Positions 2,086 through 50,290 of a DNA stretch of 64,000 nt are shown in pieces. The stretch spans positions 48,813 through 112,812 of the forward strand of contig CAMDKM010000007.1 of the NCBI GenBank assembly GCA_945900965.1. Reading direction: 5' to 3'. The translations under genes were made by a program, and so were the position numbers. A model generated the notes under the pieces. That model saw nothing but the letters and a program-made list of their open reading frames with translations. It did no database searches and was not told where the DNA came from. Position 1 is the first letter of the stretch. Every line of letters starts with the position of its first letter. Source of the DNA: Bordetella parapertussis (GTDB lineage: Bacteria; Pseudomonadota; Gammaproteobacteria; Burkholderiales; JACQAP01).

Positions 2086-2141
2086 TCACCCTTCACCCTT
2101 CACCCTTACCCCTTACCCCTTACCCCTTACCCCTTCCGCAT
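2086..2141. repeat. Heptamer array: TTCACCC x3 then TTACCCC x5
   Basis: Eight 7-bp units run without a gap or register slip: three TTCACCC (2086-2106) and five TTACCCC (2107-2141). On the left the array is preceded by GGATTGAGGATCGAGGGG (2069-2085), which is itself made of GGATTGA-like 7-bp words. The array lies between the stop of the MBL gene (2187) and the start of the lysine/saccharopine dehydrogenase gene (1982). It is one of about ten such loci in this window. Confidence 0.95.
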
Positions 2142-2186
2142 TCACTCTTGCGAGTTCCGCCTCGTCCGGCTTAGAATTTTTCTTCG

Positions 2187-3077
2187 TCAGAACCCTTGTT
2201 TCCTGGCTATCGAGTCATATTCGAACCAGAACGCATCCTGGCGCCGAATGATGCGTCCCAGTGACGGTTCCGGGAAATGCGTGGCACACACCGTCACACC
2301 CGTGTCGCAGTAGCGTTCCAGAAATTTCCGCCGCGTTGCGCTGGCCAGGGCAGGATCCACGTCGGCACGCATGATCCAGCCTGGTTCACGGCACTGCACC
2401 GGACTGTGGATACAGTCGCCGGTGATGACAGCCTGGGCGCCCTGCGAGGCAAGATAAACGCACACATGGCCCGGCGTGTGTCCCGGCGAGGGTTCCAGCC
2501 AGACTTCGTCATCCAGGGCAAAGTCGGCACCCACCAGTTGCACCTGACCCGCCTCCATCACCGGCAGGATGCTGTCCACATAGTGCGGCTGGGGTTGCTT
2601 GCGGTGCAGAGCTTCGAAGTTCTCCCATTCCTGGCGGGCGAAGATGTACTTCGCATTCGGGAAGGTCGGCACCCAGCGACCATCGCGCAACCGGGTGTTC
2701 CAGCCGACATGGTCCCAGTGCAAATGGGTACACATCACGTAGTCCACCTCCTCGGGCGCCACCCCGGCAGCGGCAAGATGCGGCAGAAAAGTGTTCCACT
2801 GCTTCATGTCCCAGAACGGACGCTGCGGGCGGGGCTTGTGATCTCCGACACAAGTGTCAACCAGAATGGTGTGATGTCGTGTGCGCACCAGAAACGCCTG
2901 AATCGGCAGGATAAGATTGCCGGTAACCGGCTGCAGAGCCCAGGGCTCCATCCAATTCTTGTGCAATGCCCAGTCTTCCGCCGTGGATTGCGGAAAAAAA
3001 CTCCGCGCCTCGAACCCCGTGCAGATGGACTCGACGATGCGCTGGATGACGATCTCGCCTACGGCATATTGCCTCAC
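2187..3077 (-). CDS. MBL-fold metallo-hydrolase
   Basis: 296 residues if started at the GTG at 3077, which has GGAGG four bases upstream; the reading frame stays open further upstream to 3251, but there it crosses degenerate repeat sequence and has no ribosome site. The metal-binding signature THLHWDHVG, a later GHTPGH histidine and TGDCIHSP are all present, so it should be an active zinc hydrolase of the lactonase/glyoxalase-II-like branch. There is no signal peptide. The substrate is unknown; cyclic ester or thioester hydrolysis is usual for the fold. It stands alone between two intergenic repeat zones. Confidence 0.85.
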   Translation of the reverse strand: MRQYAVGEIVIQRIVESICTGFEARSFFPQSTAEDWALHKNWMEPWALQPVTGNLILPIQAFLVRTRHHTILVDTCVGDHKPRPQRPFWDMKQWNTFLPHLAAAGVAPEEVDYVMCTHLHWDHVGWNTRLRDGRWVPTFPNAKYIFARQEWENFEALHRKQPQPHYVDSILPVMEAGQVQLVGADFALDDEVWLEPSPGHTPGHVCVYLASQGAQAVITGDCIHSPVQCREPGWIMRADVDPALASATRRKFLERYCDTGVTVCATHFPEPSLGRIIRRQDAFWFEYDSIARKQGF

Positions 3078-3390
3078 AGCCCCTCCGCCCACGCTTTTTT
3101 GCACGTATTGCCTACAGGGTAGTGTATTCGAAGAAATATGATTGCGTCTCCAACTGTCATTCTCGTGCAAACGGCAATCCAGATTATTCAAAAAAAGCAG
3201 GCTTCTGCTCCCGACAAAACCGATCGGAGAAGAGTTATTGGAGGACGACACTTGCTCAGTATTGCCTTTACACGGTACCGGCGGGTTACGCTTCGCTAAC
3301 CCACCCTACGCATCTTTTTTCCTTTGCGTCCTTTCTTGATCTTCCTTTGCGCCTTTGCGTCGACGATTCACTTTTGATTTTTGAACCCGG
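3078..3390. other. Repeat-filled gap without a gene
   Basis: This 313-bp stretch holds three repeat types. Near 3156-3183 is a degenerate copy of the ATTCCC-N8-GGGAAT palindrome family seen better at 12.2, 12.5 and 23.8 kb. At 3279-3309 is a REP-like hairpin (GGGTTACG-CTT-CGCTAACCC followed by ACCCTACG). At about 3318-3362 are CTTTGCG words with imperfect 7-bp spacing, 29 bp from the stop of the SDR gene. I see no credible reading frame. Confidence 0.7.
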
Positions 3391-4206
3391 CTACTGGGTA
3401 TCCGTGGCGCGAGGACGGCCAACCAGAGTCGTACCACCGTCCACCACCAATGTCTGCCCTGTGATGAAGCGCGCCTGATCGGATAGCAGGAAGCGAATGG
3501 CATTACCGATATCCCACCCGGTTCCTTCCACGCCCAGCACCGAGGCTTCACGACGCCGCTCGCGTGCGGCTGGACTCATGCCCACTGCATACACCATCGG
3601 CGTATAAACTGGTCCGGGTGCAACACAGTTAACACGAATGCCTTGCGGGCCGTGGTCCACCGCCATTGCGCGGGTCAACGCGATCACGGCGCCTTTGGAC
3701 GTGGAATAAGCAGTCATGCCCCGCGGGCGCAAAGCGGCAATCGAGGCCACATTGACAATCGCCCCGGCACCGGCAGTCTTGATCATGGCGGGAATGGCAT
3801 GCCGGGAGGCGAGGAACATGCTGTCCACATTGACCTGCATGATCCGGTGCCACCGATCCACATCTTCCTCGACTACACTGCCCTTGCCGTCGATGCCGAC
3901 GTTGTTGTCCAGCAAATCGAGACGGCCGAATTGAGAGAGCGCGGTTTCGACCATCGCGCGGCATTGCGCTTCGTCGGTAACATCCGCCGCGAACGCGGCG
4001 GCCTTGCCGCCTTCGTCCGTAATCATCTTGACCGTGCGCTGGGCAAGATCGAATTTCTGGTCCACCACCAGCACCCGCGCCCCGACCCGGGCGAGCAGAA
4101 TAGCTGCCGCCCGGCCATTGCCAATGCCGTCTCCCGCCGCCCCGCCGCCGGTGACGATGGCAACTTTGCCGGCGAGGCCGAAGTCCTGACTGGATTGTGA
4201 ATTCAT
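3391..4206 (-). CDS. SDR-family oxidoreductase (NNVG subtype)
   Basis: 271-residue short-chain dehydrogenase. The cofactor loop is TGGGAAGDGIGNG at residues about 19-31, the central beta-4 motif reads NNVG where most SDRs have NNAG, and the catalytic Ser and YxxxK are in SIAALRPRGMTAYSTSKG. The C terminus has the usual ITGQTLVVDGG. A strong AGGAGGAG site precedes the ATG. It is a clear paralogue of the SDR gene at 37114-37914, sharing the GDGIGNG/GEGIGNG loop and NNVG. The substrate is unknown; NAD(P)-dependent oxidation of a secondary alcohol is the family role. Confidence 0.87.
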   Translation of the reverse strand: MNSQSSQDFGLAGKVAIVTGGGAAGDGIGNGRAAAILLARVGARVLVVDQKFDLAQRTVKMITDEGGKAAAFAADVTDEAQCRAMVETALSQFGRLDLLDNNVGIDGKGSVVEEDVDRWHRIMQVNVDSMFLASRHAIPAMIKTAGAGAIVNVASIAALRPRGMTAYSTSKGAVIALTRAMAVDHGPQGIRVNCVAPGPVYTPMVYAVGMSPAARERRREASVLGVEGTGWDIGNAIRFLLSDQARFITGQTLVVDGGTTLVGRPRATDTQ

Positions 4207-4379
4207 GTCATCTCCTCCTGCTCAGGACCCAATGAACATGGGGTCCTTAGAGAAAAATAGTTGGCAATGTTGTCGAAACATTGTATCAACCGGCCTGCGC
4301 GCATGTTTGGGCAATCCGCAGCCGCCATCCAGCACGCATACAATGTGCGGATCGTCCGTTCGAGAATTAAGGATTACCA

Positions 4380-5813
4380 ATGCCAACAACCCCCAACGCC
4401 AGTTTCGACGCGAAGTCACTCGAAGCATTCATTTCTCAGAAATGGGATGGCGACATCGTCCCGCGTCTGGTCGAGTACATCCGCATACCCTGCAAGTCGC
4501 CGCACTTCGATCGCGACTGGGCCGCCAACGGCCATATCGACTCCGCAGTCAAGCTGGCCGAGGGCTGGTCGCAGGCGCAAAACATTCCCGGATTGAAGCT
4601 CCAAGTCGTTCGCCTGGCCAACCGCACACCGGTAATTTTCTTCGAACTGCCCGGCGATGCGCCCGGCACCATTCTCATGTACGGCCACCTCGACAAGCAG
4701 CCGGAGATGACTGGCTGGCGGGAAGGCTTTGGGCCGTGGATACCGGTGCTGCAGGACGGCAAGCTCTATGGCCGCGGCGGCGCGGACGACGGCTACGCGA
4801 TCTTCGCGTCGCTGGCAGCACTGTCCGCGCTCAAAGAGCAACGCATTCCGCACGCGCGCATTGTAGGCTTGATCGAATGCTGCGAGGAAAGCGGCAGCTT
4901 CGACCTGCCCGCCTATCTGGACGCGCTGAAATCACGCATCGGCACTGTCGATCTCGTCATCGGCCTCGATTCCGGCTGCGGCAACTATGATCAATTGTGG
5001 ATGACCACCAGCCTGCGCGGCATCGCGGCCGGCACACTCACCGTGGAAGTGCTCAACGAAGGCGTGCACTCGGGGGACGCCAGCGGCGTCGTGCCTTCGA
5101 GCTTCCGAATCGCACGGCTATTGCTGGATCGTCTGGAAGACGCAAAGACCGGGCGCATCCTGCCGAAGGAGTTTTATTGCGACATCCCCTCCGAGCGCAC
5201 CGACCAGGCAGCCCTCGCCGGCCAAACGCTCGGCGAAGCCATGCTCACGCGCTTTCCTTTCGCCGGCAAGACACGGCCAATGATCAGCGATCATGGCGAA
5301 GCCGTGCTGAACCGCACCTGGCGGCCCTTCCTGTCGATCATCGGCGCCGATGGCATGCCCGCCATCAAGGACGCCGGCAACGTGCTGCGCCCAAGAACCG
5401 CCCTCAAACTCAGCCTGCGCATCCCGCCGCTTATCGACGGCAAGCGCGCCACCGAAGACCTGAAACGCATTCTCGAAGCCGATCCACCCCATGGGGCGAA
5501 AGTGAGCTTCGAAGCCGACCAGGGCGCCAGCGGCTGGCACGCCTCGGCCACCGCACCGTGGCTGAAGGAGACGGTGGATGCCGCGTCAAAGCAGTTCTAC
5601 GGAAAGCCCGCGATGATGATGGGCGAAGGCGGCACCATCCCCTTCATGGCCATGCTCGGCAAATCATTTCCGCAAGCGCAGTTCCTGATCACCGGCGTGC
5701 TTGGTCCGAAATCCAACGCCCACGGCCCGAACGAGTTTTTGCATATTCCCTATGCGAAGAAACTCACCGCCTGCGTGGCACAGATAATTGCGGGGCATGG
5801 AGGTTTGGCTTAA
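4380..5813 (+). CDS. M20-family metallopeptidase (dipeptidase-like)
   Basis: 477 residues, matching the long M20 dipeptidase/carboxypeptidase branch. Metal ligands are visible as GHLDKQPE (about residue 100), GRGGADDGYA, the CCEESGS glutamates and a C-terminal HGPNE, with the dimerisation domain between them. No signal peptide, so a cytosolic di-zinc hydrolase acting on a peptide or N-acyl bond is expected. The ATG has an AAGGA site 6 bases upstream and the gene is followed after 33 bp by the dCTP deaminase gene. The exact substrate cannot be read from sequence. Confidence 0.87.
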   Translation: MPTTPNASFDAKSLEAFISQKWDGDIVPRLVEYIRIPCKSPHFDRDWAANGHIDSAVKLAEGWSQAQNIPGLKLQVVRLANRTPVIFFELPGDAPGTILMYGHLDKQPEMTGWREGFGPWIPVLQDGKLYGRGGADDGYAIFASLAALSALKEQRIPHARIVGLIECCEESGSFDLPAYLDALKSRIGTVDLVIGLDSGCGNYDQLWMTTSLRGIAAGTLTVEVLNEGVHSGDASGVVPSSFRIARLLLDRLEDAKTGRILPKEFYCDIPSERTDQAALAGQTLGEAMLTRFPFAGKTRPMISDHGEAVLNRTWRPFLSIIGADGMPAIKDAGNVLRPRTALKLSLRIPPLIDGKRATEDLKRILEADPPHGAKVSFEADQGASGWHASATAPWLKETVDAASKQFYGKPAMMMGEGGTIPFMAMLGKSFPQAQFLITGVLGPKSNAHGPNEFLHIPYAKKLTACVAQIIAGHGGLA

Positions 5814-5846
5814 TGTATCGATCCACCTCCGCCAAGGGGACGTCGG

Positions 5847-7052
5847 ATGAATAACGCGGTAACGGAAACAATCATGACAGACACATCAGCCCCAACTGCC
5901 AATGTACGCACTGCCGAGTACACGGGCATTCTTCCCAGCCAGAAGATCAGAGCAATGGTGGATAACGACGAGATAAAGACTGTCGTCAGACCACTCGACC
6001 CTGACCAGATACAACCTGCCAGCATCGATCTGAGGCTTGGCGACTGGGCTTATCCCGTGGATACGAGCTTTCTTCCCGGTAAAGGGGTAAGAGTGCTCGA
6101 CAAAATGAAGGAGCTGGATGACCAGTACGACAAATTCAAGATTGATCTTCGCAACGGCGCTGTATTGGAGAAGGGTCGCATATACGTTATTCAGCTTATC
6201 GAAGCCATCGATTTAAGAAGCGAGGTGGCGGCGTTCGCCAACCCAAAGAGCTCAACGGGCCGCCTGGACATTCTCACCAGGTTGATTGCGGATGAAGCCG
6301 AAGTTTTTGATCAAGTGAATGAAGGCTATAAGGGCGAACTCTACATAGAAGTGGCGCCGCGAAGTTTTAGTGTCGTGGCCAGAACCGGCACCCGTTTGAA
6401 TCAGTTGAGATTCCGCCGCACCAGAGGCGAAGCACCGAAAGCCATCTCGGCTGCCGAGTGGAGGCGGCTTCTTGGCGAAGGTCACCTGCTCAACTTCTCG
6501 GCGGAGGACGAAAACCCGCGCTCCATCAAGACAGGGGTACTACCCTTCACCATTGACTTGCAGGGACAGGAGGGCGAAGGCGGAGTGATTGGTTATCGCG
6601 CAAAAAAACACACAGGACGAATTGATCTGGACAGGCGGGACTACGACCGTTTCGATTTCTGGGATCCGATTCGTTTCCACAAGAAATCGTCGCTCACGCT
6701 GGATCCGGATGAGTTCTATATTCTGGTGACAAAGGAGGCGATAGCCGTCCCTCCGGACTATGCGGCGGAGATGCTGCCCTACGACACACGCGCCGGAGAG
6801 TTTCGGGTTCACTATGCCGGCTTTTTTGATCCGGGATTTGGCTGGAATTCACAAACAGGCCGGGCCGGAAGCAGCAGGGGAGTGCTCGAAGTACGCTCGC
6901 ACGAAATCCCTTTCCTGCTCGAACACGGACAGACTGTCGGTTGGCTGCGCTTCGAGCGCATGGCGGCCCGACCCGAAATGCTCTATGGCGAAGACGGCCG
7001 CTCGAACTACCAGGGTCAGGGTTTGAAGTTGGCCAAGCAGTTCTCGCAGTAA
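5847..7052 (+). CDS. dcd: 2'-deoxycytidine 5'-triphosphate deaminase (long, two-domain type)
   Basis: 401 residues as called from an ATG with AGGGG upstream; an internal ATG at 5874 gives a product closer to the usual length of this family. The DCD signature QIQPASIDLRLG lies near residue 53 and the substrate loop NPKSSTGRLD near residue 133; a second related domain fills the C-terminal half (VHYAGFFDPGFGW). This is the large DCD type rather than the short E. coli Dcd. It converts dCTP to dUTP for thymidylate synthesis. It follows the M20 peptidase gene on the same strand. Confidence 0.88.
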   Translation: MNNAVTETIMTDTSAPTANVRTAEYTGILPSQKIRAMVDNDEIKTVVRPLDPDQIQPASIDLRLGDWAYPVDTSFLPGKGVRVLDKMKELDDQYDKFKIDLRNGAVLEKGRIYVIQLIEAIDLRSEVAAFANPKSSTGRLDILTRLIADEAEVFDQVNEGYKGELYIEVAPRSFSVVARTGTRLNQLRFRRTRGEAPKAISAAEWRRLLGEGHLLNFSAEDENPRSIKTGVLPFTIDLQGQEGEGGVIGYRAKKHTGRIDLDRRDYDRFDFWDPIRFHKKSSLTLDPDEFYILVTKEAIAVPPDYAAEMLPYDTRAGEFRVHYAGFFDPGFGWNSQTGRAGSSRGVLEVRSHEIPFLLEHGQTVGWLRFERMAARPEMLYGEDGRSNYQGQGLKLAKQFSQ

Positions 7053-7123
7053 ATCTGATTCTTGAAGTACTCAACATAAAGATTGTAGTTTCAGCATTGA
7101 TGCTTTTTTTCTCTAGTGCCCCC

Positions 7124-8791: not shown

Positions 8792-8805
8792 ATCGGACCG
8801 GTATC

Positions 8806-11167: not shown

Positions 11168-11261
11168 TGGCGCCCCCAGGAAATAAGTGAGCGGTAGATT
11201 AACTTGAATTGCGGTGATCGGCGTGACGAAAATAAAAGGGGAGGACGTGAAGGGGAAGACG

Positions 11262-11289
11262 GTAACGTGTAACGGGTGACAAGTGACGA
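11262..11289. repeat. Short heptamer array (4 units)
   Basis: Units GTAACGT, GTAACGG, GTGACAA and GTGACGA follow each other exactly every 7 bp. The array lies between the start of the M20 gene (11167) and the stop of the first EAL gene (11347). Confidence 0.8.
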
Positions 11290-11346
11290 GCCCTCCCCGC
11301 CGTCTTATGGTCTCGTCCGCTTCCCCATTTCGCCCGAGATCAGTGC

Positions 11347-12144: not shown

Positions 12145-12271
12145 CTGCGCCAGGGAAAACCTGAGTAAGTGTCTTCCCCGCGAAGGCGGGGAACCAGATG
12201 CCATTAAAATCCTGGATTCCCGTTTTCACGGGAATGACATTTGGAAAATTATTCAGTGTTTCCCGAGATTG
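12145..12271. repeat. Left arm of a long imperfect inverted repeat with two palindromes
   Basis: This about 127-bp arm matches the reverse complement of 12437-12567. It contains two hairpins of the same spacing: TTCCCC-N8-GGGGAA near 12174 and ATTCCC-N8-GGGAAT near 12216. The second has exactly the form of the dRS3 repeat of Neisseria (ATTCCC-N8-GGGAAT). Confidence 0.88.
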
Positions 12272-12333
12272 ACCGGACCTGGGCATTTAACGGCACAACA
12301 ATGGGGAAAGTAAATGGCAGGGCGCAAAAACCG

Positions 12334-12419
12334 GTGAACGGTGATCGGTGAACAGTGAACGGCAGAACTAAAGGGCCAGATTCTGTGACGAGAGACAGGT
12401 GACGAGTGACGGGTAAGGG
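12334..12419. repeat. Two heptamer blocks between the inverted arms
   Basis: Block one (12334-12361) has GTGAACG, GTGATCG, GTGAACA, GTGAACG. Block two (12385-12419) has GTGACGA, GAGACAG, GTGACGA, GTGACGG, GTAAGGG. Each block is in strict 7-bp register, but the two blocks are not in register with each other. Confidence 0.85.
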
Positions 12420-12436
12420 CAAAAACCTCCGGACAA

Positions 12437-12881: not shown

Positions 12882-12931
12882 GTGAAGGGTGAAGGGTGAA
12901 GGGTGAAGGGTGAATGAGTGAAGGGTGAAAA
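12882..12931. repeat. Heptamer array GTGAAGG
   Basis: Four GTGAAGG units in register (12882-12909), then GTGAATG, one extra base, GTGAAGG and GTGAAAA. It lies directly upstream of the GIY-YIG-like gene and 74 bp downstream of the stop of the second EAL gene. Confidence 0.9.
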
Positions 12932-23815: not shown

Positions 23816-23824
23816 GATTTTCCC

Positions 23825-23852
23825 TAGCCCCCAGCCCCTAGTCCCTAGCCCC
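23825..23852. repeat. Heptamer array TAGCCCC, overlapping a stop codon
   Basis: Units TAGCCCC, CAGCCCC, TAGTCCC and TAGCCCC in strict register, followed by TCACACT. The TAG stop of the cinA-like gene (23845-23847 on the minus strand) and the codons just before it lie inside the array. Confidence 0.88.
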
Positions 23853-24582
23853 TCACACTCCACTCAAACCCCAGCGCACTGACGCCTTTTTGCAAATTCT
23901 CGAGCGCCTCGTTGGCGAGTATTGCCTCGCCCTTGACGCCCAACTCGATACGCCGATCCGGACTGACGCTGGGCAGGCTGAACAATTTCAGCGCGGGGTA
24001 TCGCGCGATGCATGCATTCATCAAATCGATCAACTGGCTCTCTCCCGCACCTCTAACCACGATTGCCACATCAACTGGCGGGTCCGCACGATGCAGATGC
24101 GCGTATTCATAATCGAGCACCCATTCCATCATCGGCCAGGCCATTTCCGGGAAGCCGGGCAGAAAATGGTGTCGGTGGAAACTAAAACCGGGAATACGAT
24201 TGAAGGGGTTGGCAATAATGCGGCTGCCCGCCGGGAATACGCCCATCTCCAGGCGCCTGGCGTTGATCTCCGCGCCGAAACGCGCTTCGATCTCGCGCCT
24301 GGCCTCGGGATGCATTCGCAACTCGACACCCGCCGCCCTGGCCGCGCATTGGCGGGTATGGTCATCGGGTGTGGCGCCGATGCCGCCAAAGCTGAACACG
24401 GTATCGGCACGCGCCAATGTGCTGGTCAATACCTGCGTAATGATGTCGGGATCGTCGGGCAGATTCATGCTCCACGACAGGCCCAAACCGCGTGCCTTCA
24501 GCAATTCCACGATCTTGGGAAAATGTTTGTCCTGCCGTTTCCCGGACAAGATTTCATCGCCGATGATAAGTGCTCCGAACAC
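23845..24582 (-). CDS. CinA N-terminal / molybdopterin-binding domain protein
   Basis: 245 residues from a GTG start with AGGAG six bases upstream. It has the MoCF-biosynthesis fold: IIGDEILSGKRQDKH at the start and FGGIGATPDDHTRQ in the middle. It lacks the C-terminal nicotinamide-mononucleotide deamidase domain of full-length CinA. Related short proteins hydrolyse ADP-ribose-type or FAD pyrophosphates; the function here is open. The last codons (VRG, stop) lie in a heptamer array. Confidence 0.85.
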   Translation of the reverse strand: MFGALIIGDEILSGKRQDKHFPKIVELLKARGLGLSWSMNLPDDPDIITQVLTSTLARADTVFSFGGIGATPDDHTRQCAARAAGVELRMHPEARREIEARFGAEINARRLEMGVFPAGSRIIANPFNRIPGFSFHRHHFLPGFPEMAWPMMEWVLDYEYAHLHRADPPVDVAIVVRGAGESQLIDLMNACIARYPALKLFSLPSVSPDRRIELGVKGEAILANEALENLQKGVSALGFEWSVRG

Positions 24583-27995: not shown

Positions 27996-28230
27996 GGGGA
28001 TTGGGGATTGGGGATTGAGGGGCTGGGGACTTGGGTCTAGGGGCCAGGGACTAGAAAAGTCCTCCTAACTCCTCGCTCCTCACGGTTCATCGTTCACCGT
28101 TCACCGTTCACCGTTCACCGTTCACTGTTCACTGTTCACCGTTCACTGTTCACCGTTCACTGTTCACCGTTCACCGTTCACTGTTCACTGCCTTTTGACC
28201 GTTCACTCATTCACCCATTCACTTATTCAC
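27996..28230. repeat. Compound heptamer array, G-rich then C-rich
   Basis: The left block, 27996-28051, has eight units in register: GGGGATT x3, GAGGGGC, TGGGGAC, TTGGGTC, TAGGGGC, CAGGGAC. The right block, 28091-28188, has fourteen units in register, all CGTTCAC or TGTTCAC. It then breaks into TGCCTTTTGAC, one CGTTCAC and three 8-bp units ending in ATTCAC. It lies between the start of the CBS gene and the stop of the M48 gene; this and the flanks fill the gap 27918-28283, with no gene inside. Confidence 0.95.
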
Positions 28231-28283
28231 GCATTCCAGAGTTCCGGCTTGGGATCCAGGAACAGCGGGCATCGAATGCCGGG

Positions 28284-34509: not shown

Positions 34510-34510
34510 C

Positions 34511-37914: not shown

Positions 37915-37936
37915 GACTGTTCTCCTCTAAAAGATA

Positions 37937-38112
37937 GGATCGAAGATCGAGGGTCGGGAAAGCAGGGGCTAGCGACTAGGGGCTTGGGGCTAGGTATCGG
38001 GATTGAGGATTGAGGATCGGGGATCGAGGGGTGGAGCGCCGCAAGGCGGCGCAATTGTATTTTTACCGTTCACCGATTACCGTTCGCCGTTCACAGCCTT
38101 TTGACCGTTCAC
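37937..38112. repeat. Compound heptamer array with drifting units
   Basis: Fourteen G-rich units in exact 7-bp register from 37937 to 38034: GGATCGA, AGATCGA, GGGTCGG, GAAAGCA, GGGGCTA, GCGACTA, GGGGCTT, GGGGCTA, GGTATCG, GGATTGA x2, GGATCGG, GGATCGA, GGGGTGG. Then a C-rich block at 38067-38094 (CGTTCAC, CGATTAC, CGTTCGC, CGTTCAC) and GCCTTTTGACCGTTCAC at 38096-38112, a 17-bp exact match to 28190-28206. It lies between the SDR start and the qmcA stop. Confidence 0.95.
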
Positions 38113-38171
38113 TGCCTTTGACCCGTTCACCGCTCATCATTCATCCCCCTCACCGCGCACTTTCTTGTCCA

Positions 38172-42147: not shown

Positions 42148-42149
42148 TT

Positions 42150-42316: not shown

Positions 42317-42380
42317 TTCTACCTCGCCACCTCACCCCCGCCCTCTCCCCCGCAAGCGGCGGAGAGGGGATTCCGAGGAT
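42317..42380. repeat. Hairpin repeat, copy 2
   Basis: Direct repeat of 42150-42213 with the same CTTCTACCTCGCCACCTCA start and a CTCTCCCCCGC...GCGGCGGAGAGG hairpin. On the minus strand it places GAGGTAGAAG in front of an ATG at 42313 that opens a 25-codon frame; this frame could be a leader peptide or a chance product of the duplication. Heptamer-like words (CTCGCTCCTCGATCC) fill 42450-42475 next to the parE stop. Confidence 0.8.
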
Positions 42381-42476
42381 TTTTTTAATTTTTTTGTATT
42401 GGGTCCCGTGCGCGTGCGCGGCGATCGTTACGGCTCTTCATTATTTTTCCCTCGCTCCTCGCTCCTCGATCCTGCT

Positions 42477-44465
42477 TTAAGAAATATCCGCCTCCACAAG
42501 ATTCCCATAGGTCTCCATCCATTCGCGGCGCGTGGATGCGTTTTCGCGCGCCATCATCATATTGAAGATGTCCACGGACACATCCACACCTTCGTCCAGC
42601 GCCACCGGCAACATGCGCCTCGTATCGGGATTGAGCGTGGTTTCCCACAGTTGTTCGGGATTCATCTCGCCCAGGCCCTTGAAGCGGCTCACCGTCCAGG
42701 AACCAGACTTCACACCTTCATCCTCGAGTTTTTCCTCGGTGGCTTCGAGTTCCTGGCGGTCGAGCGCATAAAGTTTGCGCGCCGGCTTGCCCTTGCCCTG
42801 ACCTGGCACATCGAGACGGAATAGCGGGGGCTGGGCAACGTACACGTTGCCGTTGGCAATCAGTTTCGGAAAATGTTTGAAGAACAGGGTCAATAACAGC
42901 ACCTGGATGTGCGAGCCATCGACGTCCGCGTCAGCCAGGATGATGATCTTCTTATAGCGCAATCCAGCCAGATCGACGTTGTCGCCCGGTTTGTGATGAT
43001 CCACACCGATGGCCAGCGCGATGGCCTCGATTTCCTTGTTGGCGTAGAGCGTATCAGGACTATCCTGCCAGGTATTTTTGGGCTTGCCCTTGAGTGGCAG
43101 CACGGCCTGGAATTCTTTGTCGCGCGCCTGCTTGGCCGAGCCACCGGCGGAATCGCCCTCGACGATAAACATTTCATTGCGCTCGGGATCGTCGGAGGCG
43201 CAGTCAGTCAGTTTGCCGGGCAGCACCGCTACGCCGGAACTCTTGCGGCGTTCGACTTTTTGCGCGGCACGGGTGCGGGCGTTGGCCTGACTGATCACCA
43301 ACTCGGCGATGCGTTTGCCTTCGTCCACATGCTGGTTGAGCCACAGCTCGAAGGGATCACGCACCATCTGCGCGGTGAGCTTCACGGCATCCCGCGAAAT
43401 CAATTCATTCTTGACCTGCCCCTTGAACTGGGGATCGAGCATTTTCACCGCCAGCACGTAACACACGCGCGACCAGACATCCTCCGGCACGATTTTCAGG
43501 CCGCGCTGACCCATGGCGTGAATATCGATAAAGGCCTTGATGGCGTTGTAGACGCCTTCGCGCAAGCCGGCTACATGAGTGCCGCCGACGCGGGTAGGAA
43601 TCATGTTGACGTAGGACTCGGTGACGGTTTCGCCTTCCGCGGTCCACGCAATTGCCCACATCGCGCCTTCGCCCTCGGCAAAACTGTCGGATTCCGATTG
43701 GGCGGCGATATAACGCTCACCGAGAAAACTGCTCGCCGCCGGCTCCAGGCTGGCGATCGCGGAGGCGAAATAACCCTTGATGCCCTCGGGAAAATGCCAG
43801 GTCTGGGTTTCGATCTTTTTGTTCTTCTCGATGCCGAGGGTGAATTTCACGCCGGGCAACAGCATGGCCTTGGCTCGCAGCAGCGCGGCGATGTCGGCCA
43901 CCACGATCTTCGGCGAATCGAAATATTTCGGGTCGGGCCAGAACCTGACACGTGTGCCACTCTCGCGCGGCCCGATCTGGCCGAGTTTTTTCAGCGGCTC
44001 CCTGACCTTGCCGTTATCGGCGAAAACGATCCGATTGCGCTCGCCATCACGCCGTACTTCGACTTCGAGCCGAGTCGAAAGCGCGTTGGGCACACACACT
44101 CCAACACCATGCAGACCACCGGCGATGCGATAGGCCGCGTCCTTGTCGGTCTTGCGAAACTTGCCGCCGGAATGCAAGGTGGTAAAAATCACCTGCACAG
44201 CCGGCACTTTCTTTTTCGGATGGATATCGACAGGAATGCCGCGGCCATCGTCGGTCACTTCGGCAGAACCTTCTTCATAGAGCACCACCTGCACATTTGT
44301 GGCGAATCCGGCCAGGCCCTCGTCGGCGGCGTTGTCGATGATTTCGACCAGCGCATGATTGGGATTGGCCGGATCGGTGTACATGCCCGGGCGATGCAGG
44401 ATGGGCGAAAGGTCTTCGAGGATCTCGATGTCCTCGGCAGTATATCCCGGAGTTTTTTTGGCCAT
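42477..44465 (-). CDS. parE: DNA topoisomerase IV subunit B
   Basis: 662 residues. GHKL ATPase motifs: EIIDNAADEGLAG, DDGRGIPVD and GGLHGVGV; TOPRIM metal site EGDSAGGSAKQARD and DADVDGSHI. Length and the KKTPGYTAEDIEILEDL start fit ParE rather than GyrB. Pairs with ParC to form topoisomerase IV. parE and parC are in the order parE-parC on the minus strand, with a 329-bp repeat-rich gap. Confidence 0.95.
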   Translation of the reverse strand: MAKKTPGYTAEDIEILEDLSPILHRPGMYTDPANPNHALVEIIDNAADEGLAGFATNVQVVLYEEGSAEVTDDGRGIPVDIHPKKKVPAVQVIFTTLHSGGKFRKTDKDAAYRIAGGLHGVGVCVPNALSTRLEVEVRRDGERNRIVFADNGKVREPLKKLGQIGPRESGTRVRFWPDPKYFDSPKIVVADIAALLRAKAMLLPGVKFTLGIEKNKKIETQTWHFPEGIKGYFASAIASLEPAASSFLGERYIAAQSESDSFAEGEGAMWAIAWTAEGETVTESYVNMIPTRVGGTHVAGLREGVYNAIKAFIDIHAMGQRGLKIVPEDVWSRVCYVLAVKMLDPQFKGQVKNELISRDAVKLTAQMVRDPFELWLNQHVDEGKRIAELVISQANARTRAAQKVERRKSSGVAVLPGKLTDCASDDPERNEMFIVEGDSAGGSAKQARDKEFQAVLPLKGKPKNTWQDSPDTLYANKEIEAIALAIGVDHHKPGDNVDLAGLRYKKIIILADADVDGSHIQVLLLTLFFKHFPKLIANGNVYVAQPPLFRLDVPGQGKGKPARKLYALDRQELEATEEKLEDEGVKSGSWTVSRFKGLGEMNPEQLWETTLNPDTRRMLPVALDEGVDVSVDIFNMMMARENASTRREWMETYGNLVEADIS

Positions 44466-44637
44466 TCTTTATATCGGTTGGCGTTGCGAGTGTTTCGGTT
44501 CGTCCACGCATTCGCCGGTGGACGCTTGCCGGCATCCGGGGCGTGGCGCCCTTCGGACGGTGTTGATCAATCGAAGCACAATTCGAAGCGGGCGGCTGCT
44601 GTCACGGCGCGCATTGTAGTGTGTCCTCCTGAATCCA

Positions 44638-45153
44638 TCACGGGTCTTTGTGCAAAGGCAAGGCGGCAAGCGCCTCGAGCGACGGGCCGGCGACCCGGAA
44701 TATGGTCCAGTCATCCAGAGTGCGTGCGCTCAGGGACCGGTAGAACCGGATCGCCGGCTCATTCCAATCCAGCGCCGCCCATTCGAAACGTCCACAGCCC
44801 CGGTCGTGGGCAATTTTGGCAACTTCCAGCAGAAGCCGCCGACCGTAACCACGCCGACGGTGGGCGGGTCGCACGTATAAGTCTTCCAGCCACAGTCCGC
44901 GCACGCCGAGGAAAGTGGAAAAATTGTGGAAGTACACCGCAAAACCCACAGGCGTATCACCTTCCAGAGCGAGCAATACCTCGGCACCGGGTTGCGCGCC
45001 GAACAGTGAATCCCGCAGTCCCGCCTCGGTCGCGCTAACCAGGTGACTCAAATGTTCGTAGTCGGCCAGCTCGCGAATAAAGTCCAGCACAGCGGAAAGG
45101 TCGTGCGCCGTTGCCGGGCGGATGCGCAGTGTCGATGGGTTCGAAGTCGTCAA
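44638..45153 (-). CDS. GNAT-family N-acetyltransferase, diamine/thialysine acetyltransferase-like
   Basis: 171 residues from a TTG start with AAGG seven bases upstream. GNAT motif A is LYVRPAHRRRGYGRRLL, and GVRGLWLEDLYV and RFEWAALDWNEPAIRFYRSL match the spermidine/thialysine acetyltransferase group, which acetylates small diamines with acetyl-CoA. The gene follows the LysR regulator gene after 10 bp, so the two are one operon and the regulator may control it. Confidence 0.85.
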   Translation of the reverse strand: MTTSNPSTLRIRPATAHDLSAVLDFIRELADYEHLSHLVSATEAGLRDSLFGAQPGAEVLLALEGDTPVGFAVYFHNFSTFLGVRGLWLEDLYVRPAHRRRGYGRRLLLEVAKIAHDRGCGRFEWAALDWNEPAIRFYRSLSARTLDDWTIFRVAGPSLEALAALPLHKDP

Positions 45154-45163
45154 TGTGGGACCT

Positions 45164-46114: not shown

Positions 46115-46141
46115 AGCTCCGCAAAGTTATCACTTTTTAGG

Positions 46142-46164
46142 CATGAATCATATCCTGTTTCATG
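46142..46164. promoter_or_regulatory. LysR-type binding dyad
   Basis: CATGAA-N11-TTCATG, a perfect 6-bp dyad with the spacing typical of LysR operators, lies between the LysR gene and the divergent region starting at 46235. Confidence 0.6.
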
Positions 46165-46234
46165 AACTATTCATTAACAGGGCATGAGCGTAAATTATGG
46201 CGCGTAGAGCATCACTTGGCCGGAGGCACTCACC

Positions 46235-46333
46235 ATGCAGAAGCTTATTGAAATGTGGATCCGACTTTATCGACCCATGCCCGACTTACCGAAGATATCT
46301 GACGCCCCGGGGAACGGAAGAGCGCAACAGTAG
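46235..46333 (+). CDS. Possible 32-residue small protein
   Basis: ATG with GGAGG eight bases upstream opens MQKLIEMWIRLYRPMPDLPK, ending in PGNGRAQQ. It lies just after the LysR operator, in divergent orientation, and a strong terminator follows about 150 bp later. No family recognised. The stretch after it (46334-46480) could be a 3' untranslated region or the main part of a small RNA that starts nearby. I see nothing in 46514-46700. Confidence 0.4.
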   Translation: MQKLIEMWIRLYRPMPDLPKISDAPGNGRAQQ

Positions 46334-46480
46334 TGGATCGCGTATGAGCCCGGCACTTTTTGGTATCTGCCCTAGCCGCCAGACGGCTTGACATGTACAC
46401 GGTCCGAAGCCTGCGAAGTCCGCCAGGCAAGTAACGACTCCTCCCCACGTATCCTCCGTCTATTTGGATGCCGTGGTTTA

Positions 46481-46512
46481 GAGAGGGACGCTCAGGCGCC
46501 CCTCTTTTTTTT
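46481..46512 (+). terminator. Rho-independent terminator
   Basis: Stem AGAGGGACGC / GCGCCCCTCT (one mismatch) with a 4-base loop, followed by eight T. It closes the transcript that starts in the LysR divergent region. Confidence 0.88.
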
Positions 46513-46808
46513 GCCTATCACCAACAATCCGAAACAAAGTGAATTGGGTCGCGCAATCGTTGCGGACAAGGTTTTCGTGCCGCCCCGAATAGAACCAAAC
46601 ACAACGACTTACCCAACACGCGATGCAATCTGGCGGCGAACTTGAGCATTCAAATCAAGGCTTCCGAAAAAACAGTTAAGAGATTGCAGACACAAGCGCC
46701 ATGGACGCATTGATTTCACGTAAACACGGTGGAATTCAAACCATGATGTGTGGTTACAATTCGCCCTGATATATTCGGCAGCGCCTGAACACAAACAGGA
46801 GGCAAGCG

Positions 46809-47204
46809 ATGGGCAAGAAAAAGAAATCGGACGACAAGGATCAGAAGTACAAAGGAATTCTTTCCGAAACACGGCGCCCTCCCGTCGAAGAAGCGCTCGC
46901 ATGTCCACCTTCCACGCGTTTTTTCTGGGAGCTGGTGGTGGGCAACGGCATCGGCGAACGTGCCGTCGAAGATGCGCTGGAAGCCTATCGGCGCGCACTG
47001 GTCTCGCGGCGGGACAAGGCCTTGGACGCGGCACAACACCACGAACATGATCTGGGGAAATTCTGCGAAACGGATGAGCACTTGATTTACGGGCCATTTG
47101 TCGGGCCACAATCGTGGCGTATCGTTCAGGAACAACCGCTGCGCGCCACACTTTGGAGTTGGGTCGGATATCAGTCACTGCATTTCTGCCGGAGCCGTTT
47201 GTAG
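46809..47204 (+). CDS. Orphan protein, 131 residues
   Basis: Perfect ribosome site AGGAGG six bases before the ATG. Starts MGKKKKSDDKDQKYKGILSE, a highly charged N terminus, then RRPPVEEALACPPSTRFFWE and a helical stretch ERAVEDALEAYRRALVSRRD. Several His and Trp in the C-terminal third. No signal peptide or membrane segment, no recognised family. The ribosome site makes it a likely gene, but the reading frame C-terminal to about residue 85 looks compositionally different and may be frame-shifted or decayed. Confidence 0.5.
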   Translation: MGKKKKSDDKDQKYKGILSETRRPPVEEALACPPSTRFFWELVVGNGIGERAVEDALEAYRRALVSRRDKALDAAQHHEHDLGKFCETDEHLIYGPFVGPQSWRIVQEQPLRATLWSWVGYQSLHFCRSRL

Positions 47205-47274
47205 TTTTTTGTTTTGGCGAACGCTCTCTAGTACACGAAACTCTCCGCGCGCACAAAATATTTCTCGCGTCGCG

Positions 47275-47309
47275 ATATCCACAATTTCTGTGGATAAGCT
47301 TGTGGATGA
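47275..47309. promoter_or_regulatory. Cluster of three DnaA boxes
   Basis: TGTGGATAA at 47289-47297 is a perfect DnaA box on the minus strand. ATATCCACA at 47275-47283 and TGTGGATGA at 47301-47309 each have one mismatch. All three lie within 35 bp, in a gap of 366 bp (47205-47570) that has AT-rich runs on both sides (AAAATATTTCTC and AAAAAATATATTTG) and no gene. Confidence 0.65.
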
Positions 47310-47570
47310 CACGCAGCTTTTTATCTAATCCCTTTTCCCTGCTTGCACTCTTGTTAGGGTTGCTCAAATATTCAGCAAGCTGTCACCGCTCAGCGACGAA
47401 GCAAAAAGTTCGAAAAAATATATTTGTGCCAAATCGCGCAACTGTGCTGACTGCAATTTTGGCAGGCCAAAGAACTCCCGGGGAAAAACAACAGCTTGGT
47501 CGGGGAATCGAAGGTCACGCCATACGCACAATGGCTACGGAGGCCGCTACCAGTGACAAGCCCGCGACGA

Positions 47571-49016
47571 TTATTGTCGGGGCTTCCAGGCGCGGGCGAT
47601 TTCCTGCGCCTTGGCGAGTTGTTCCGGGCTGAGTTTTGAGCCGATAAAATCGCGCACCTTTCCGACCCGAAGTCCTTCCTCGCCAGACAGTTGCGAGGCC
47701 GCGAGATTGCTCCAGACATGCGCCATCACCGAATCCTGCGGCGTGCCTTTGCCTTCCCACAACATCCAGCCCAGATGACTCTGCGCACGTGGCTCGCCTT
47801 TTTCCGCAGCGAGGGTGTACCACTTTGCGGCTTGCGGAAGGTCTGCGGCGACACCTTTGCCTTCTTCATGCAGGTAACCCATCAGGTATTGCGCGTAGGC
47901 GCTGCCTTTTTCCGCGGGGATGCGGTACCACTTCGCGGCTTCGGCGGAGTCCTGTGCGATACCTTTGCCAAAAAAATACATGGCACCCAGACTTTCCATC
48001 GCCTCGGTGACGCCCGCCTCGGCGGCCTGCCTGTACCACTTGACGGCTTCGTTGCCATCTGCCGGCACGCCTTTGCCGTCCTCGTACAGGAATCCCAGCA
48101 TGTATCTTGACTGGGTGTCGCCTTCGTCGGCCGCCTTGCGAAACCAGATTGCCGCCGACGCAAAATCCTGCGCTACGCCTTTTCCCTGATAGTAGGCCCA
48201 GCCAAGGCTGGAATAAACCGACGACTCCTTTTGCGCCGCCGCCTTCTGGAACCACTTGAATGCCTCGGCATCATCCTGGGCCACGCCTTTGCCTGCGGCA
48301 TGGAGAAAACCCAGGCTGGCTTGCGCGCGCGGGTCGTTCTGATCCGCCGCCTTGCGATACCACTCGGCGGCCTTGGCCGGATCCTCGGGCAGACCACGCC
48401 CCTGCTCGAACATCCACCCCATGAGATATTGCGGGTAAGCCCGCCCTTGTTCGGCAACCTTGGAGTACCACTTGGCGGCTTCCACGTAGTCCTGCGGGAC
48501 ACCGCGCCCAAAAAAGAGCAGGGAAGCCACGCTCTCTTGCGCATCCGCGTTACCTTGTTCGGCGGCTTTGCGATACCACTGCGCCGCGCGCGCCTGATCC
48601 TGGGCCACACCCTTGCCCTGGTCGTACAGGTAGCCCAGCAAATACTGCGGATAGGCTTTGCCCTGCTTGGCGGCCATTTCGTACCACAGCGCGGCCTGCG
48701 CAAAATCCTGAGCCACACCCTTGCCGAAAAAATACATGCCGCCCAGCGTTTCCTGGGCCTCGACCTGGCCTTTTTCGGCGGATTGTTTGTACCACTTGAC
48801 GGCCTCGGCGTAGTCCTGCAGCACACCGCGGCCATTGAAGTAACACTCGCCCAGGAAAAACATGGCCAAGCCGTCTCCCTGCTGAGCCGTGACACGAAAT
48901 TGCTCGATGGCCGATTTGAAGTCGCCTTTTTCGTAAGCCTCGTAACCCTTGCGGGTATCCGCCAGGGCGCCAAAGCCCAGTGTCGACAACAGGACAAAAA
49001 CCATTACGCGAACCAT
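47571..49016 (-). CDS. Periplasmic Sel1-repeat protein with eleven repeats
   Basis: 481 residues from ATG 49016 with GGGGGAG upstream. Signal peptide MVFVLLSTLGFGALA cut before DTRK. Then eleven 36-residue Sel1-like repeats, each with AxxxLGxxYxxGxGVxQD and AxxWYxxAAExG, for example YFNGRGVLQDYAEAVKWY, ending in a short helical tail. A right-handed superhelix for protein-protein contact is expected. It is the long relative of the short Sel1 protein at 14.4 kb. Partner unknown. Confidence 0.9.
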   Translation of the reverse strand: MVRVMVFVLLSTLGFGALADTRKGYEAYEKGDFKSAIEQFRVTAQQGDGLAMFFLGECYFNGRGVLQDYAEAVKWYKQSAEKGQVEAQETLGGMYFFGKGVAQDFAQAALWYEMAAKQGKAYPQYLLGYLYDQGKGVAQDQARAAQWYRKAAEQGNADAQESVASLLFFGRGVPQDYVEAAKWYSKVAEQGRAYPQYLMGWMFEQGRGLPEDPAKAAEWYRKAADQNDPRAQASLGFLHAAGKGVAQDDAEAFKWFQKAAAQKESSVYSSLGWAYYQGKGVAQDFASAAIWFRKAADEGDTQSRYMLGFLYEDGKGVPADGNEAVKWYRQAAEAGVTEAMESLGAMYFFGKGIAQDSAEAAKWYRIPAEKGSAYAQYLMGYLHEEGKGVAADLPQAAKWYTLAAEKGEPRAQSHLGWMLWEGKGTPQDSVMAHVWSNLAASQLSGEEGLRVGKVRDFIGSKLSPEQLAKAQEIARAWKPRQ

Positions 49017-49210
49017 GAACATCTCCCCCGTCTTTTTTTGTCGCGGCCGCCCCGGCATAAACACCGTGGACAACTGCTGGATTTACATTAGGGAATTCTA
49101 AACCGATTCACATCGCGGCAGTCGCGTTTGCCTTGACATCTCTTTGGAGCCGATCCTATTCTCGTGCCGTTCCATTTGGCCCGCCACTTCCGGGCACTGC
49201 CCGCGTTCCC

Positions 49211-50080
49211 ATGATAGATGCCCTGATTTACCTTGCCACCAGCTTCTGGATTGGCGCGGTCCATGCGGCCACGCCCGGTCACGGCAAAACCATCGCCGCC
49301 GCCTATATTGTCGGCGCGCGCGGCAAACCGGTGGATGCGGTGATCCTAGGGGTATTCGTGACGCTTTCGCATACCAGCGGTATCGTGCTGGTCGGCATAC
49401 TCGCTTCGGTCGGACTACCGGGCATGGTTCCACAGCGCATCGAAGCCTGGCTGGCGCTGATCACCGGCGTGCTCGTTATTGGCATCGGCGCATGGACGCT
49501 GTGGACTCAGCGCGAGATGATTCTTCAATTGCAAGGCGTGCCTGCCGCTCCGGCTATCACACCAAAATCGGCGATGGCATTCCGATCAGTTGCACCACAC
49601 ACGCACCATCACGACTTGCATCATGCCCCGCACGGGCATACGCATGGCCACGACGACACTCACTCGCATGAGCATGACGCCACTCATGAAGAAGGCGGCA
49701 CTCACAGCCACGGCTGGGGCTTCAAACACACCCACGATCTCAAACTGGCGACGACTCAGCGGCCCAGCCTTCTGGTGCTGATTGGCCTGGGCATCGCGGG
49801 AGGCCTGTTGCCCGATCCAGCCGCGCTTGCCATTCTTCTTAATGCACTCGCTCAGGGCAAGGTCATGCTCGGCCTCGCGACCGTTGTGGTATTCAGCGTC
49901 GGCTTTGCCATGACTCTTGTGGTGGTCGGGGTCATCGCGGCGAAAGTCGGCCAAAAAATTCTCGATTGGCTGGCCGGCCCCTGGGCAATGCGAATGCAGG
50001 TCGGCACATCCCTGCTCATCGTGGTGGTCGGCGTACTGCTGTCGGCAAAGGCCTGGGTGACGCTGAGCACGTTTGGCTGA
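49211..50080 (+). CDS. NicO-family nickel/cobalt transporter
   Basis: About 289 residues from ATG 49211; the frame is open upstream but the added sequence is not membrane-like. Six or so membrane helices, a conserved HAATPGHGKTIAAAY at the N terminus and a cytoplasmic loop very rich in histidine (HTHHHDLHHAPHGHTHGH and later HSHEHD, HSHGW). This is the RcnA/NicO pattern for nickel or cobalt export or transfer. No ribosome site is clear before the start. It is one of two Ni/Co-type transporters in this stretch. Confidence 0.85.
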   Translation: MIDALIYLATSFWIGAVHAATPGHGKTIAAAYIVGARGKPVDAVILGVFVTLSHTSGIVLVGILASVGLPGMVPQRIEAWLALITGVLVIGIGAWTLWTQREMILQLQGVPAAPAITPKSAMAFRSVAPHTHHHDLHHAPHGHTHGHDDTHSHEHDATHEEGGTHSHGWGFKHTHDLKLATTQRPSLLVLIGLGIAGGLLPDPAALAILLNALAQGKVMLGLATVVVFSVGFAMTLVVVGVIAAKVGQKILDWLAGPWAMRMQVGTSLLIVVVGVLLSAKAWVTLSTFG

Positions 50081-50136
50081 GTGCGCCTCGCGTGCTCGGC
50101 TAGGATCGAGGATCGAGGGTGTCTCCAGCGTTCTTT

Positions 50137-50290
50137 CGCCTCACGCCTCACGCCTCACGCCTCACGCCTCACGCCTCACGCCTCACGCCTCACGCCTCTC
50201 GCCTCACGCCTCACGCCTCACGCCTCACGCCTCACGCCTCACGCCTCACGCCTCACGCCTCACGCCTCACGCCCCACGCCCCACGCCTCA
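50137..50290. repeat. Heptamer array CGCCTCA x22
   Basis: Twenty-two 7-bp units in exact register, nineteen CGCCTCA with one CGCCTCT and two CGCCCCA. On the left it is preceded by TAGGATC, GAGGATC, GAGGGTG (50101-50121). It ends 10 bp from the stop codon of the NHL-type gene (50301) and starts 56 bp after the stop of the NicO gene. Confidence 0.97.

Follow-up and report, generated by a model that had tools for sequence, protein, structure and literature searches.

A 64,000 nt stretch of the Bordetella parapertussis genome (hereafter the window, and its genome, a likely betaproteobacterial one, the host) carries tandem repeats at many intergenic sites, with a step of 7 bp and a unit that differs from site to site. 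The question raised by this locus is what is inherited at such sites, and what makes the arrays, if not a fixed sequence. Eleven coordinates had been listed in the initial annotation as starts of arrays that all step by exactly 7 bp. Based on lag-7 matches above threshold, seven of these fell inside called arrays. The first is a minus-strand pyrimidine arm at 2085–2143, made of TTCACCC and then TTACCCC units, on the stop side of the minus-strand gene 2187–3251; a short plus-strand purine arm (AGGATTGAGGATCGAGGGG, 2066–2084; 9/20 lag-7 matches over 2064–2090) was read from the sequence as its partner in an inverted pair. On the plus strand, a GTGAACG-type array at 12332–12360 is flanked by REP-like palindromes and a GTGAAGG array at 12882–12929 lies at a called gene edge, the start call being uncertain. 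A CCCTAGC array on the minus strand at 23822–23853 (purine strand GGGGCTA) overlaps the end of the minus-strand gene 23845–24582. The plus-strand purine arm at 27996–28054 has GGGGATT three times and drifts to AGGGGCT/GGGGACT units. It is followed by a minus-strand pyrimidine arm at 28062–28190 with about 18 copies of TTCACCG/TTCACTG, including, at its left end, CTAACTC/CTCGCTC units in the same register, and this arm is adjoined by a minus-strand block of 8 bp period (TTCACTCA/TTCACCCA, 28202–28245). The last of the seven, a minus-strand pyrimidine arm with about 24 copies of CGCCTCA at 50137–50303, extends to the stop codon of the minus-strand gene 50301–51320. Across the loop sequence GGTGTCTCCAGCGTT (50118–50132), in a gap of convergent genes, stands a plus-strand GAGGATC purine arm at 50102–50118.

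The listed position 37937 lay 27 bp ahead of a called array (37964–38029), in a short stretch with 12/20 lag-7 matches; both belong to a plus-strand purine arm at 37936–38029 in which AGGATCG-type units are followed by a passage from AGGGGCT to AGGATTG in one register. The remaining three listed sites were degenerate and under the array threshold, with lag 7 still ahead of lags 5, 6, 8 and 9. They are a plus-strand array of GTGAAGG, GGTAACG, TGTAACG, GGTGACA and AGTGACG at 11245–11292 (22/41 lag-7 matches against 12–14 at the other lags), a plus-strand GTGACGA-type array at 12385–12420 (19/29 against 5–11) and an interrupted minus-strand pyrimidine arm of CGTTCAC/TTACCGT units at 38063–38135 (34/66 against 14–20). 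One window loop, at 38036–38062, resembles an intrinsic terminator: a hairpin, GCGCCGCAAGGCGGCGC, was read there, followed by a T-rich stretch (38036–38052), and among all loci compared the exact string GCGCCGCAAGGCGGCGC was present in the window only. Additional sites, absent from the earlier list, were a called minus-strand CCTCGCT array at 42450–42473, 3 bp from the stop codon of the minus-strand parE-like gene 42477–44465 (DNA gyrase B domains matched), and the two short purine arms at 2066 and 50102. The step of exactly 7 bp was slightly overstated, since the array at 27996 has one 8 bp step and the block at 28202 has a period of 8. No Rfam family or tRNA was detected in the window.

The 7 bp step was then sought in a 461 kb sample of the host genome and a 1.2 Mb sample of a sister species (G002). 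The host sample had 42 intergenic and 8 coding lag-7 segments, and the sister sample 52 and 3. At lags 5, 6, 10, 11 and 13, the same lag spectrum had 0–1 intergenic segments, and five block shuffles of the host sequence gave 0–2 lag-7 segments. The initial annotation had named the lack of a lag-7 excess elsewhere in the genome as a refutation; the excess was present in the rest of the sampled host. A second repeat family has a period of 9 bp, with the purine arm first in 18/18 paired gaps.

The units had been proposed to be relatives of one drifting heptamer and not independent tracts, which was borne out by the decay of similarity with distance and by a loose grammar shared on the purine strand. 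Neighbouring units matched at 5.78 of 7 positions and units ten apart at 4.61; in 40 of 48 arrays, neighbours were more alike than units at least three apart (p = 3e-8), which is the outcome predicted by stepwise copying. The suggested pattern T-[CTA]-[AG]-N-[CTG]-[CG]-[CT] fitted seven of nine window units (1.4 expected from permuted units), and in the samples 28/42 host arrays (8.1 expected) and 34/52 sister arrays (8.5 expected). Within this grammar the diversity was large: the 356 units of the host were of 117 distinct kinds and the 282 of the sister of 97. The information content was 0.25–1.5 bits per position, and one purine-strand position was G in 92%. The commonest units were GTGAAGG, GGATTGA, GGCGTGA, GGGGCGA and GTGAACG in the host, and GGGGCTA, GTGACTG and GGGACTA in the sister. 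Dominant units avoided ATG (1 against 14.9 expected). Three consecutive copies of GAGGATY were matched 49 times (overlaps included) in the host and not once in 368 other genomes of the class, in a draw without the three congeners, which makes the unit look recent and local.

The initial annotation had placed the arrays near the stop codons of minus-strand genes. Their placement with respect to gene ends was indeed non-random; the description was too narrow, as stop edges on either strand were occupied, start edges as well, and often by inverted pairs. In gaps of at least 30 bp (host and G002 together), the purine strand pointed away from the nearer gene edge in 78 of 91 arrays: 52/53 on stop sides, 25/35 on the start sides of tandem gaps and 1/3 in divergent gaps. 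Stop sides thus held 53 of the 91 arrays, and 34 of these 53 lay within 10 bp of the stop codon (10.3 expected). The order in gaps with two arrays was purine arm, loop, pyrimidine arm in 20/20; in gaps with a single array, a weaker partner was found on the expected side in 22/51 and on the opposite side in 1/51. Divergent gaps rarely had arrays (3/213 against 68/921 other gaps; p = 4e-4). Stop triplets were enriched, being present in 61/94 dominant units (TGA 36 against 14.8 expected), though the enrichment of CTA and AAC was no weaker, and a copy of the stop codon stood 7 bp downstream at 11/40 array-bearing ends against 18/1046 others, which is partly so by construction. Despite this enrichment, stop-codon seeding or co-transcriptional R-loops were not adopted as the origin of the arrays because, where a tandem gap had arrays at just one of its sides, this was the start side (20) as often as the stop side (17).

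Orthologous sites were compared with array thresholds of 11 in the sisters and 14 in the host. An array was present in 6/7 sister comparisons for host array sites and in 0/40 for array-free host sites (3 and 20 sites, respectively). At the array sites compared, the unit differed between species, with the 7 bp step and the strand direction kept. For adjacencies defined by reciprocal best hits in G002, arrays were found at 4/7 host array sites against 1/34 array-free sites (p = 0.0016); by protein orthology, 3/7 host array sites were without a called array in G002. At the 50.1 kb site, the loop was partly conserved between the host and the sister G003, GGTGTCTCCAGCGTT being common to these two and absent from every other locus compared, and both arms had a changed unit: GTGATTG-type in G001 and G003 against GAGGATC/CGCCTCA in the host. 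Full-text searches of open-licence papers found no report of such unit turnover at fixed sites. Recombination breakpoints at arrays were also considered and showed no sign, as adjacency (at most two genes) was kept at 10/11 array gaps against 40/55 others, for gene pairs that both had reciprocal hits.

The period of 7, the direction of the purine strand, the rarity in divergent gaps, the drift of units and the different units at orthologous sites are direct observations. As sites keep step and strand direction while the letters change, a copying slip in DNA, and not a fixed sequence, is the likely maker. Our preferred reading, in which belief and doubt are about evenly balanced, is that slippage at the DNA level in 7 nt steps, combined with inverted copying between arms, makes the arrays. 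Replication slippage would lengthen them and may also cause the units to drift; template switching inside a DNA hairpin would copy one arm onto the other, a possible cause of the matching arms in the sister. Persistence may simply reflect that repeats beget repeats where neither coding sequence nor promoters constrain the DNA, so that no function would be needed to explain the arrays. In the host, one-sided expansions seem to have overtaken arm pairing.

Several observations sit less easily with slippage. Host arms do not preferentially match their own partner, and there was no polarity of growth, neither array end being more homogeneous (41 against 32; p = 0.35). From slippage alone, neither the strict purine-first order seen in all 20 two-array gaps nor a period of exactly 7 would be predicted, and the model leaves unexplained why the step is 7 (9 in the second family) and why the purine arm leads. 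A selected function, too, would account for the conserved sites. A permissive loss of the hairpin nuclease SbcCD was set aside: SbcD was above the cut-off in 17/120 genomes and in 0/10 array carriers, a test with little power since SbcD is uncommon across the order as a whole. Within the genus, three of four members, including the host, had no match and G001 had a partial match below the cut-off.

The alternative that survives best, possible though on the unlikely side, is that the inverted pairs are selected 3′-end hairpins, which fold in the RNA past the stop codon and stabilise the transcript or terminate it, as REP elements and terminators do, with position and pairing kept and the sequence free. 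REP and BIME elements are hairpin-forming fixed palindromes of convergent and tandem gaps past stop codons, associated with a tyrosine transposase; the present arrays resemble them in hairpin formation and in the gaps occupied, and differ in their tandem 7 bp step and free sequence. The placement near stop codons, the occupation of convergent and tandem gaps, the rarity in divergent gaps and the conservation of sites between host and sisters all suit such hairpins, and so does the pairing in G002. There, 8-mer sharing was higher between the two arms of one locus (0.124) than between arms taken from different loci (0.035; permutation p = 1e-4; 37/41 array regions used), and by RNA duplex energy own arms paired better than swapped arms (p = 0.001; 16 regions in the first 400 kb). 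The host did not repeat this, as own arms were no better than those of other loci by 8-mers (0.039 against 0.053; p = 0.78; 25/30 regions used) or by RNA duplex permutation (p = 0.89; 24 regions). Mismatches that preserve pairing through G-U were not in excess, with 67 against 74 non-preserving in 43 stems, and 54 against 52 in the 30 stems of tandem gaps alone, the test being uninformative for convergent gaps because both strands may be transcribed there. RNA pairing is therefore not obviously what keeps the arms similar, and selection on RNA stems was not supported in the host; in G002 own arms paired better, yet with no G-U preference. Canonical terminators (GC-rich hairpin plus T tract) were not enriched at array ends, being found at 9/81 array-bearing gene ends against 157/820 others; this lower frequency would fit replacement of terminators by arrays. 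The equal use of start sides in one-sided tandem gaps also counts against 3′-end hairpins.

Less probable is a binding array for a nucleoid or RNA-binding protein that reads a 7 nt spaced G/purine pattern. The loose grammar of the purine strand, with G prevailing at one position, and the avoidance of ATG would suit such a target; the many distinct units, the low information at each position and the replacement of units between sister species at fixed sites count against it. We consider it more improbable still that a dispersed REP- or MITE-like mobile element, whose arms are heptamer arrays by coincidence, was inserted at gene ends. A loop-side block, ACCCTTCACTCATTCAC, occurs nine times in the host sample and REP-like palindromes adjoin some arrays, but no common core was seen, loops vary by locus (the 50.1 kb loop string being specific to its locus and shared with a sister), the arm unit changes between species with its place unchanged, and no common palindrome was seen in the arms by eye. 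Weakest and very improbable is the model put forward for Xanthomonas and Nostoc, a G-quadruplex into which the purine strand folds and so modulates gene ends. In its favour, G-rich units exist (GGGGATT, GGGGCTA), four GGG runs occur in 44/94 arrays and the placement rule is identical to the published one, but 50/94 arrays have no four GGG runs, so that it was rejected as a property common to all, arrays of GTGAACG, GTGAAGG and GTGATTG have equal period, polarity and sites, and at 50.1 kb GTGATTG-type arms stand in the sisters in place of the host units.

Cyanobacterial STRR heptamers, reportedly described by Mazel and colleagues in 1990, are likewise 7 bp tandem repeats, from a different lineage. 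The earlier remark that no named equivalent was known in proteobacteria was wrong, as there are precedents in Xanthomonas (PMC4692102), Beggiatoaceae (PMC4679880) and Geobacter metallireducens (PMC2700814). Arrays of GGGAATC in Xanthomonas and GGGGA(C/T)T in Nostoc were read as quadruplexes in a search limited to one G-run unit family per genome, and the Xanthomonas arrays have the placement seen here, with convergent pairs (Rehm et al. 2015; PMC4692102). The common features are a mostly intergenic 7 bp tandem unit, a nearer 5′ ORF on the G strand regardless of ORF direction, convergent inverted pairs and rarity between divergent ORFs; because this layout is shared with the Xanthomonas and Nostoc arrays, the present arrays belong to a kind already known. 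They differ in that GGGAATC, GGGANTN and GGGGA(C/T)T are not the commonest units, although GGGGATT does occur three times at 27996 in the window, and in that quadruplex capacity, described there along with a preference for four units, is not general. New here are the many units per genome (tens, with a different unit at orthologous sites of the sisters), fewer than half of the arrays being quadruplex-capable, and the turnover of units at fixed sites.

In one Beggiatoaceae genome, 169 intergenic sets of TAACTGA direct repeats were reported (MacGregor 2015; PMC4679880). Their unit is fixed and present in two to six copies, in most cases directly ahead of a start codon; related heptamers are rare or missing, and the neighbouring ORFs show no functional pattern. 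These repeats are also intergenic heptamers of a proteobacterial lineage, whereas the present unit drifts, occupies both kinds of gene edge and often has an inverted partner; TAACTGA was not among the common units of host or sister arrays. In G. metallireducens, 49 elements carry the heptanucleotide GGGACCG four times in tandem, also within genes, and were proposed to be regulatory RNA elements (PMC2700814); they too are tandem heptamers at many sites of one genome, and differ in their four copies and single consensus.

Reports of heptamer repeats in several bacterial groups agree on no cause, and in each the repeat has been taken for a motif, be it a quadruplex, a translation signal or a regulatory element. 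These readings can be told apart in a genus whose arrays keep period, strand direction and site through sequence turnover: whatever acts on the arrays reads no fixed sequence, and their shared property cannot be a G-quadruplex. A bolder and rather doubtful generalisation is that these are a sequence-free class of repeat, in which a site would inherit only its step (7 or 9 bp), strand direction and inverted layout, and a local DNA-copying activity would rewrite the letters of both arms. If so, Xanthomonas, Nostoc and Beggiatoaceae, whose heptamers have a fixed unit, would not carry separate regulatory motifs; each would show the same process, with its built-in step, confined to a single unit. 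The question shifts from the function of a motif to the 7 nt step in DNA copying, and to what tolerates or keeps the arrays at gene ends.

All of the heptamer arrays listed for the window in the initial annotation were recovered by Tandem Repeats Finder and plain reading, three of them being degenerate. The genome-wide intergenic lag-7 excess by which it proposed to judge them was present across 461 kb of DNA from the host (assembly of 3.88 Mb in 103 contigs, the window being a 64-kb piece of contig C7). At a segment score of 14 or more, 42 intergenic and 8 coding lag-7 segments were called, compared to 0, 2, 0, 0 and 0 in five 50-bp block shuffles. Lags 14 and 21 were harmonics of lag 7, smaller intergenic peaks were seen at lags 8 (7 segments) and 9 (16 segments), and lags 5, 6, 10, 11 and 13 gave 0 or 1 intergenic segments each. 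Genes were called with our own caller (hexamer model with dynamic programming), for which start codons are uncertain; the coding fraction was 82−88% across six host pieces. The host stretches were sampled partly because they contained hits, so densities are biased high; contig C1 alone carried 19 arrays in 217 kb. The fixed pattern CACCNTTCACCNTTCACC matched the host 109 times (overlaps counted) and, read backwards, not at all. In G002, one of three congeners (G001, G002 and G003), 52 intergenic and 3 coding lag-7 segments were found in 1.2 Mb. With a stricter mismatch penalty and coding and intergenic DNA pooled, related bacteria (31 loci, 513 kb) had 5 segments compared to 54 in the host. 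The 31 relatives of the host ParC (identity 53−81%) were almost all betaproteobacterial/Burkholderiales (two only proteobacteria) and came mostly from metagenome assemblies, which makes the host a likely betaproteobacterium.

The arrays are real, genome-wide and governed by a geometric rule. With orientation set by the G-richer strand, 91 of 94 arrays from the host and G002 lay between called genes at least 30 bp apart, and in 78 of these 91 arrays the purine strand had its 5' end closer to a gene edge than its 3' end. For stop-side arrays this held in 52/53, and 34 of the 53 started no more than 10 bp from the stop codon, where uniform placement would predict 10.3. The start-side orientation rule was weaker (25 of 35 arrays in tandem gaps and 1 of 3 in divergent ones), start calls being least certain here. 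Arrays were present in 3 of 213 divergent gaps compared to 68 of 921 others (p = 4e-4). Every gap that held two called arrays (20 of 20) showed a purine arm followed by a pyrimidine arm. Of 51 single-array gaps, 22 had a weaker partner of opposite polarity on the expected side, and 1 had such a partner on the opposite side. The arm order and partner counts indicate that an array is often one half of an inverted pair; at the loci inspected, these pairs took up much of the gap.

This kind of array is already known. The host and G002 arrays obey the same placement rule as the heptamers of Xanthomonas and Nostoc, for which Rehm et al. 2015 (PMC4692102) describe the rule itself, convergent pairing, scarcity between divergent genes and sites that persist from one species to another with differing length and sequence, the function being left open by those authors.

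The units were diverse: the 356 host units comprised 117 distinct heptamers and the 282 units of G002 comprised 97. With purine-strand units set in the rotation that fits them best jointly, position 1 was G in 92%, position 2 G or T and position 3 mostly G, the remainder being loose. Four GGG runs were present in 44 of the 94 arrays. Dominant units avoided ATG (1 vs 14.9 expected) and were enriched in TGA (36 vs 14.8). Similarity fell from 5.78/7 between neighbouring units to 4.61 ten units apart, and in 40 of the 48 arrays at least 42 bp long, adjacent units resembled each other more closely than units three or more positions apart (p = 3e-8).

A second family of inverted arrays, with 9-bp units (CGCAGAGGA, CGCGGAGGA, CACGGAGGA and CGCAAAGGA), was found in host and G002 intergenic DNA. 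The purine arm came first in 18/18 paired gaps and arm spacing was mostly 60−130 bp, as at 5259−5285 and 5376−5402 of locus L014. Other repeats were also seen. REP-like palindromes lie at window positions 12166−12250 and 12470−12546 and, judged by eye, appear to form a long outer inverted repeat around the arrays at 12332 and 12385. A palindromic repeat (CCTCACCCCCGCCCTCTCCC...) at 42325−42370 has many copies in all three congeners. When 42148−42476 was compared with the orthologous loci L074 and L067, G001 and G002 showed about 1 kb extra between the parE- and parC-like genes, which by eye looks like a GGDEF gene; in the host and G003, this interval contains repeats but not the extra DNA. A 33-bp unit occurs in three copies within an open reading frame at 62421−62522.

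Three successive GTGAASG units were found in 10 of 120 genomes: the host, two congeners and seven genomes from six further genera of the same order. In pieces of these seven (192 kb, chosen for containing hits), 12 of the 14 array places inspected fell in gaps and the other 2 within called genes; at five, the TGA stop codon of the adjoining gene was the TGA of the first unit. Of 369 genomes drawn from the class, the congeners not among them, only the host had three successive GAGGATY units. The backward control matched in G049 (one of the seven) and G069 of the 120-genome set and in G240 and G358 of the 369-genome set, pointing to other tandem heptamers in these four.

Several array sites were shared between sister species while units differed. 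At 50.03−50.30 kb, in a gap flanked by convergent genes of NicO transporter and Vgb lyase type (domain search), an inverted heptamer pair is present in the host and all three congeners. Its units are GAGGATC/CGCCTCA in the host, GTGATTG/CAATCAC in G001, GAGGTCC/CTCGAAC in G002 and GTGATTG-like in G003. The loop string GGTGTCTCCAGCGTT is common to the host and G003 and absent from every other locus compared. At one site on contig C9, the host arms are GAGGGGC/GAGGATT and those of G002 and G003 GTGAACG-type; at C1:174,623, GAGGGGC in the host corresponds to seven GGGGCTA in G002. The comparison covered host sites that kept synteny and lay inside the sampled stretches; some others had lost synteny or fell outside. 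In 23 gaps aligned by both flanks, a sister array (score 11 or more) was present in 6/7 comparisons with a host array and 0/40 without, these being non-independent and covering three array sites. By reciprocal best protein hits, 4/7 array gaps and 1/34 others had a G002 array (p = 0.0016). The three misses were a gap shrunk to 5 bp, a 69-bp gap with a sub-threshold stretch only, and a site where G002 has a 9-bp-period inverted pair in place of heptamers.

The best-supported account, to which we give an even chance, is a process at the DNA level that combines slippage, 7 nt at a time, with inverted copying between the two arms. Arrays would grow by the slippage; mismatch repair is less efficient on loops longer than 1−3 bp according to a survey (PMC4060949), so 7-nt slips would escape it. 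Likeness between arms would come from inverted copying from one to the other. The main rival reading is a hairpin kept by selection at the 3' end. In G002, purine arms shared more 8-mers with the complement of their own partner than with that of partners at other loci (0.124 vs 0.035, p = 1e-4, 37 regions), and by RNA duplex energy own arms paired better (p = 0.001, 16 regions in the first 400 kb). In the host, the own partner was favoured neither by 8-mer sharing (0.039 vs 0.053, p = 0.78, 25 regions) nor by duplex energy (p = 0.89, 24 regions). One-sided expansions predominate there, and at C1:128,246 and C1:158,921 matching outer units were seen by eye to be kept around such an expansion. 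Between aligned arms, mismatches that preserve G-U pairing were no more frequent than those that disrupt it (67 vs 74; 54 vs 52 in tandem gaps alone), in a test of limited size that is little informative in convergent gaps; this speaks for DNA copying over an RNA-maintained helix.

What is new for arrays of this kind is that their units are diverse, that units turn over while sites stay fixed, and that the quadruplex reading does not hold for them in general.
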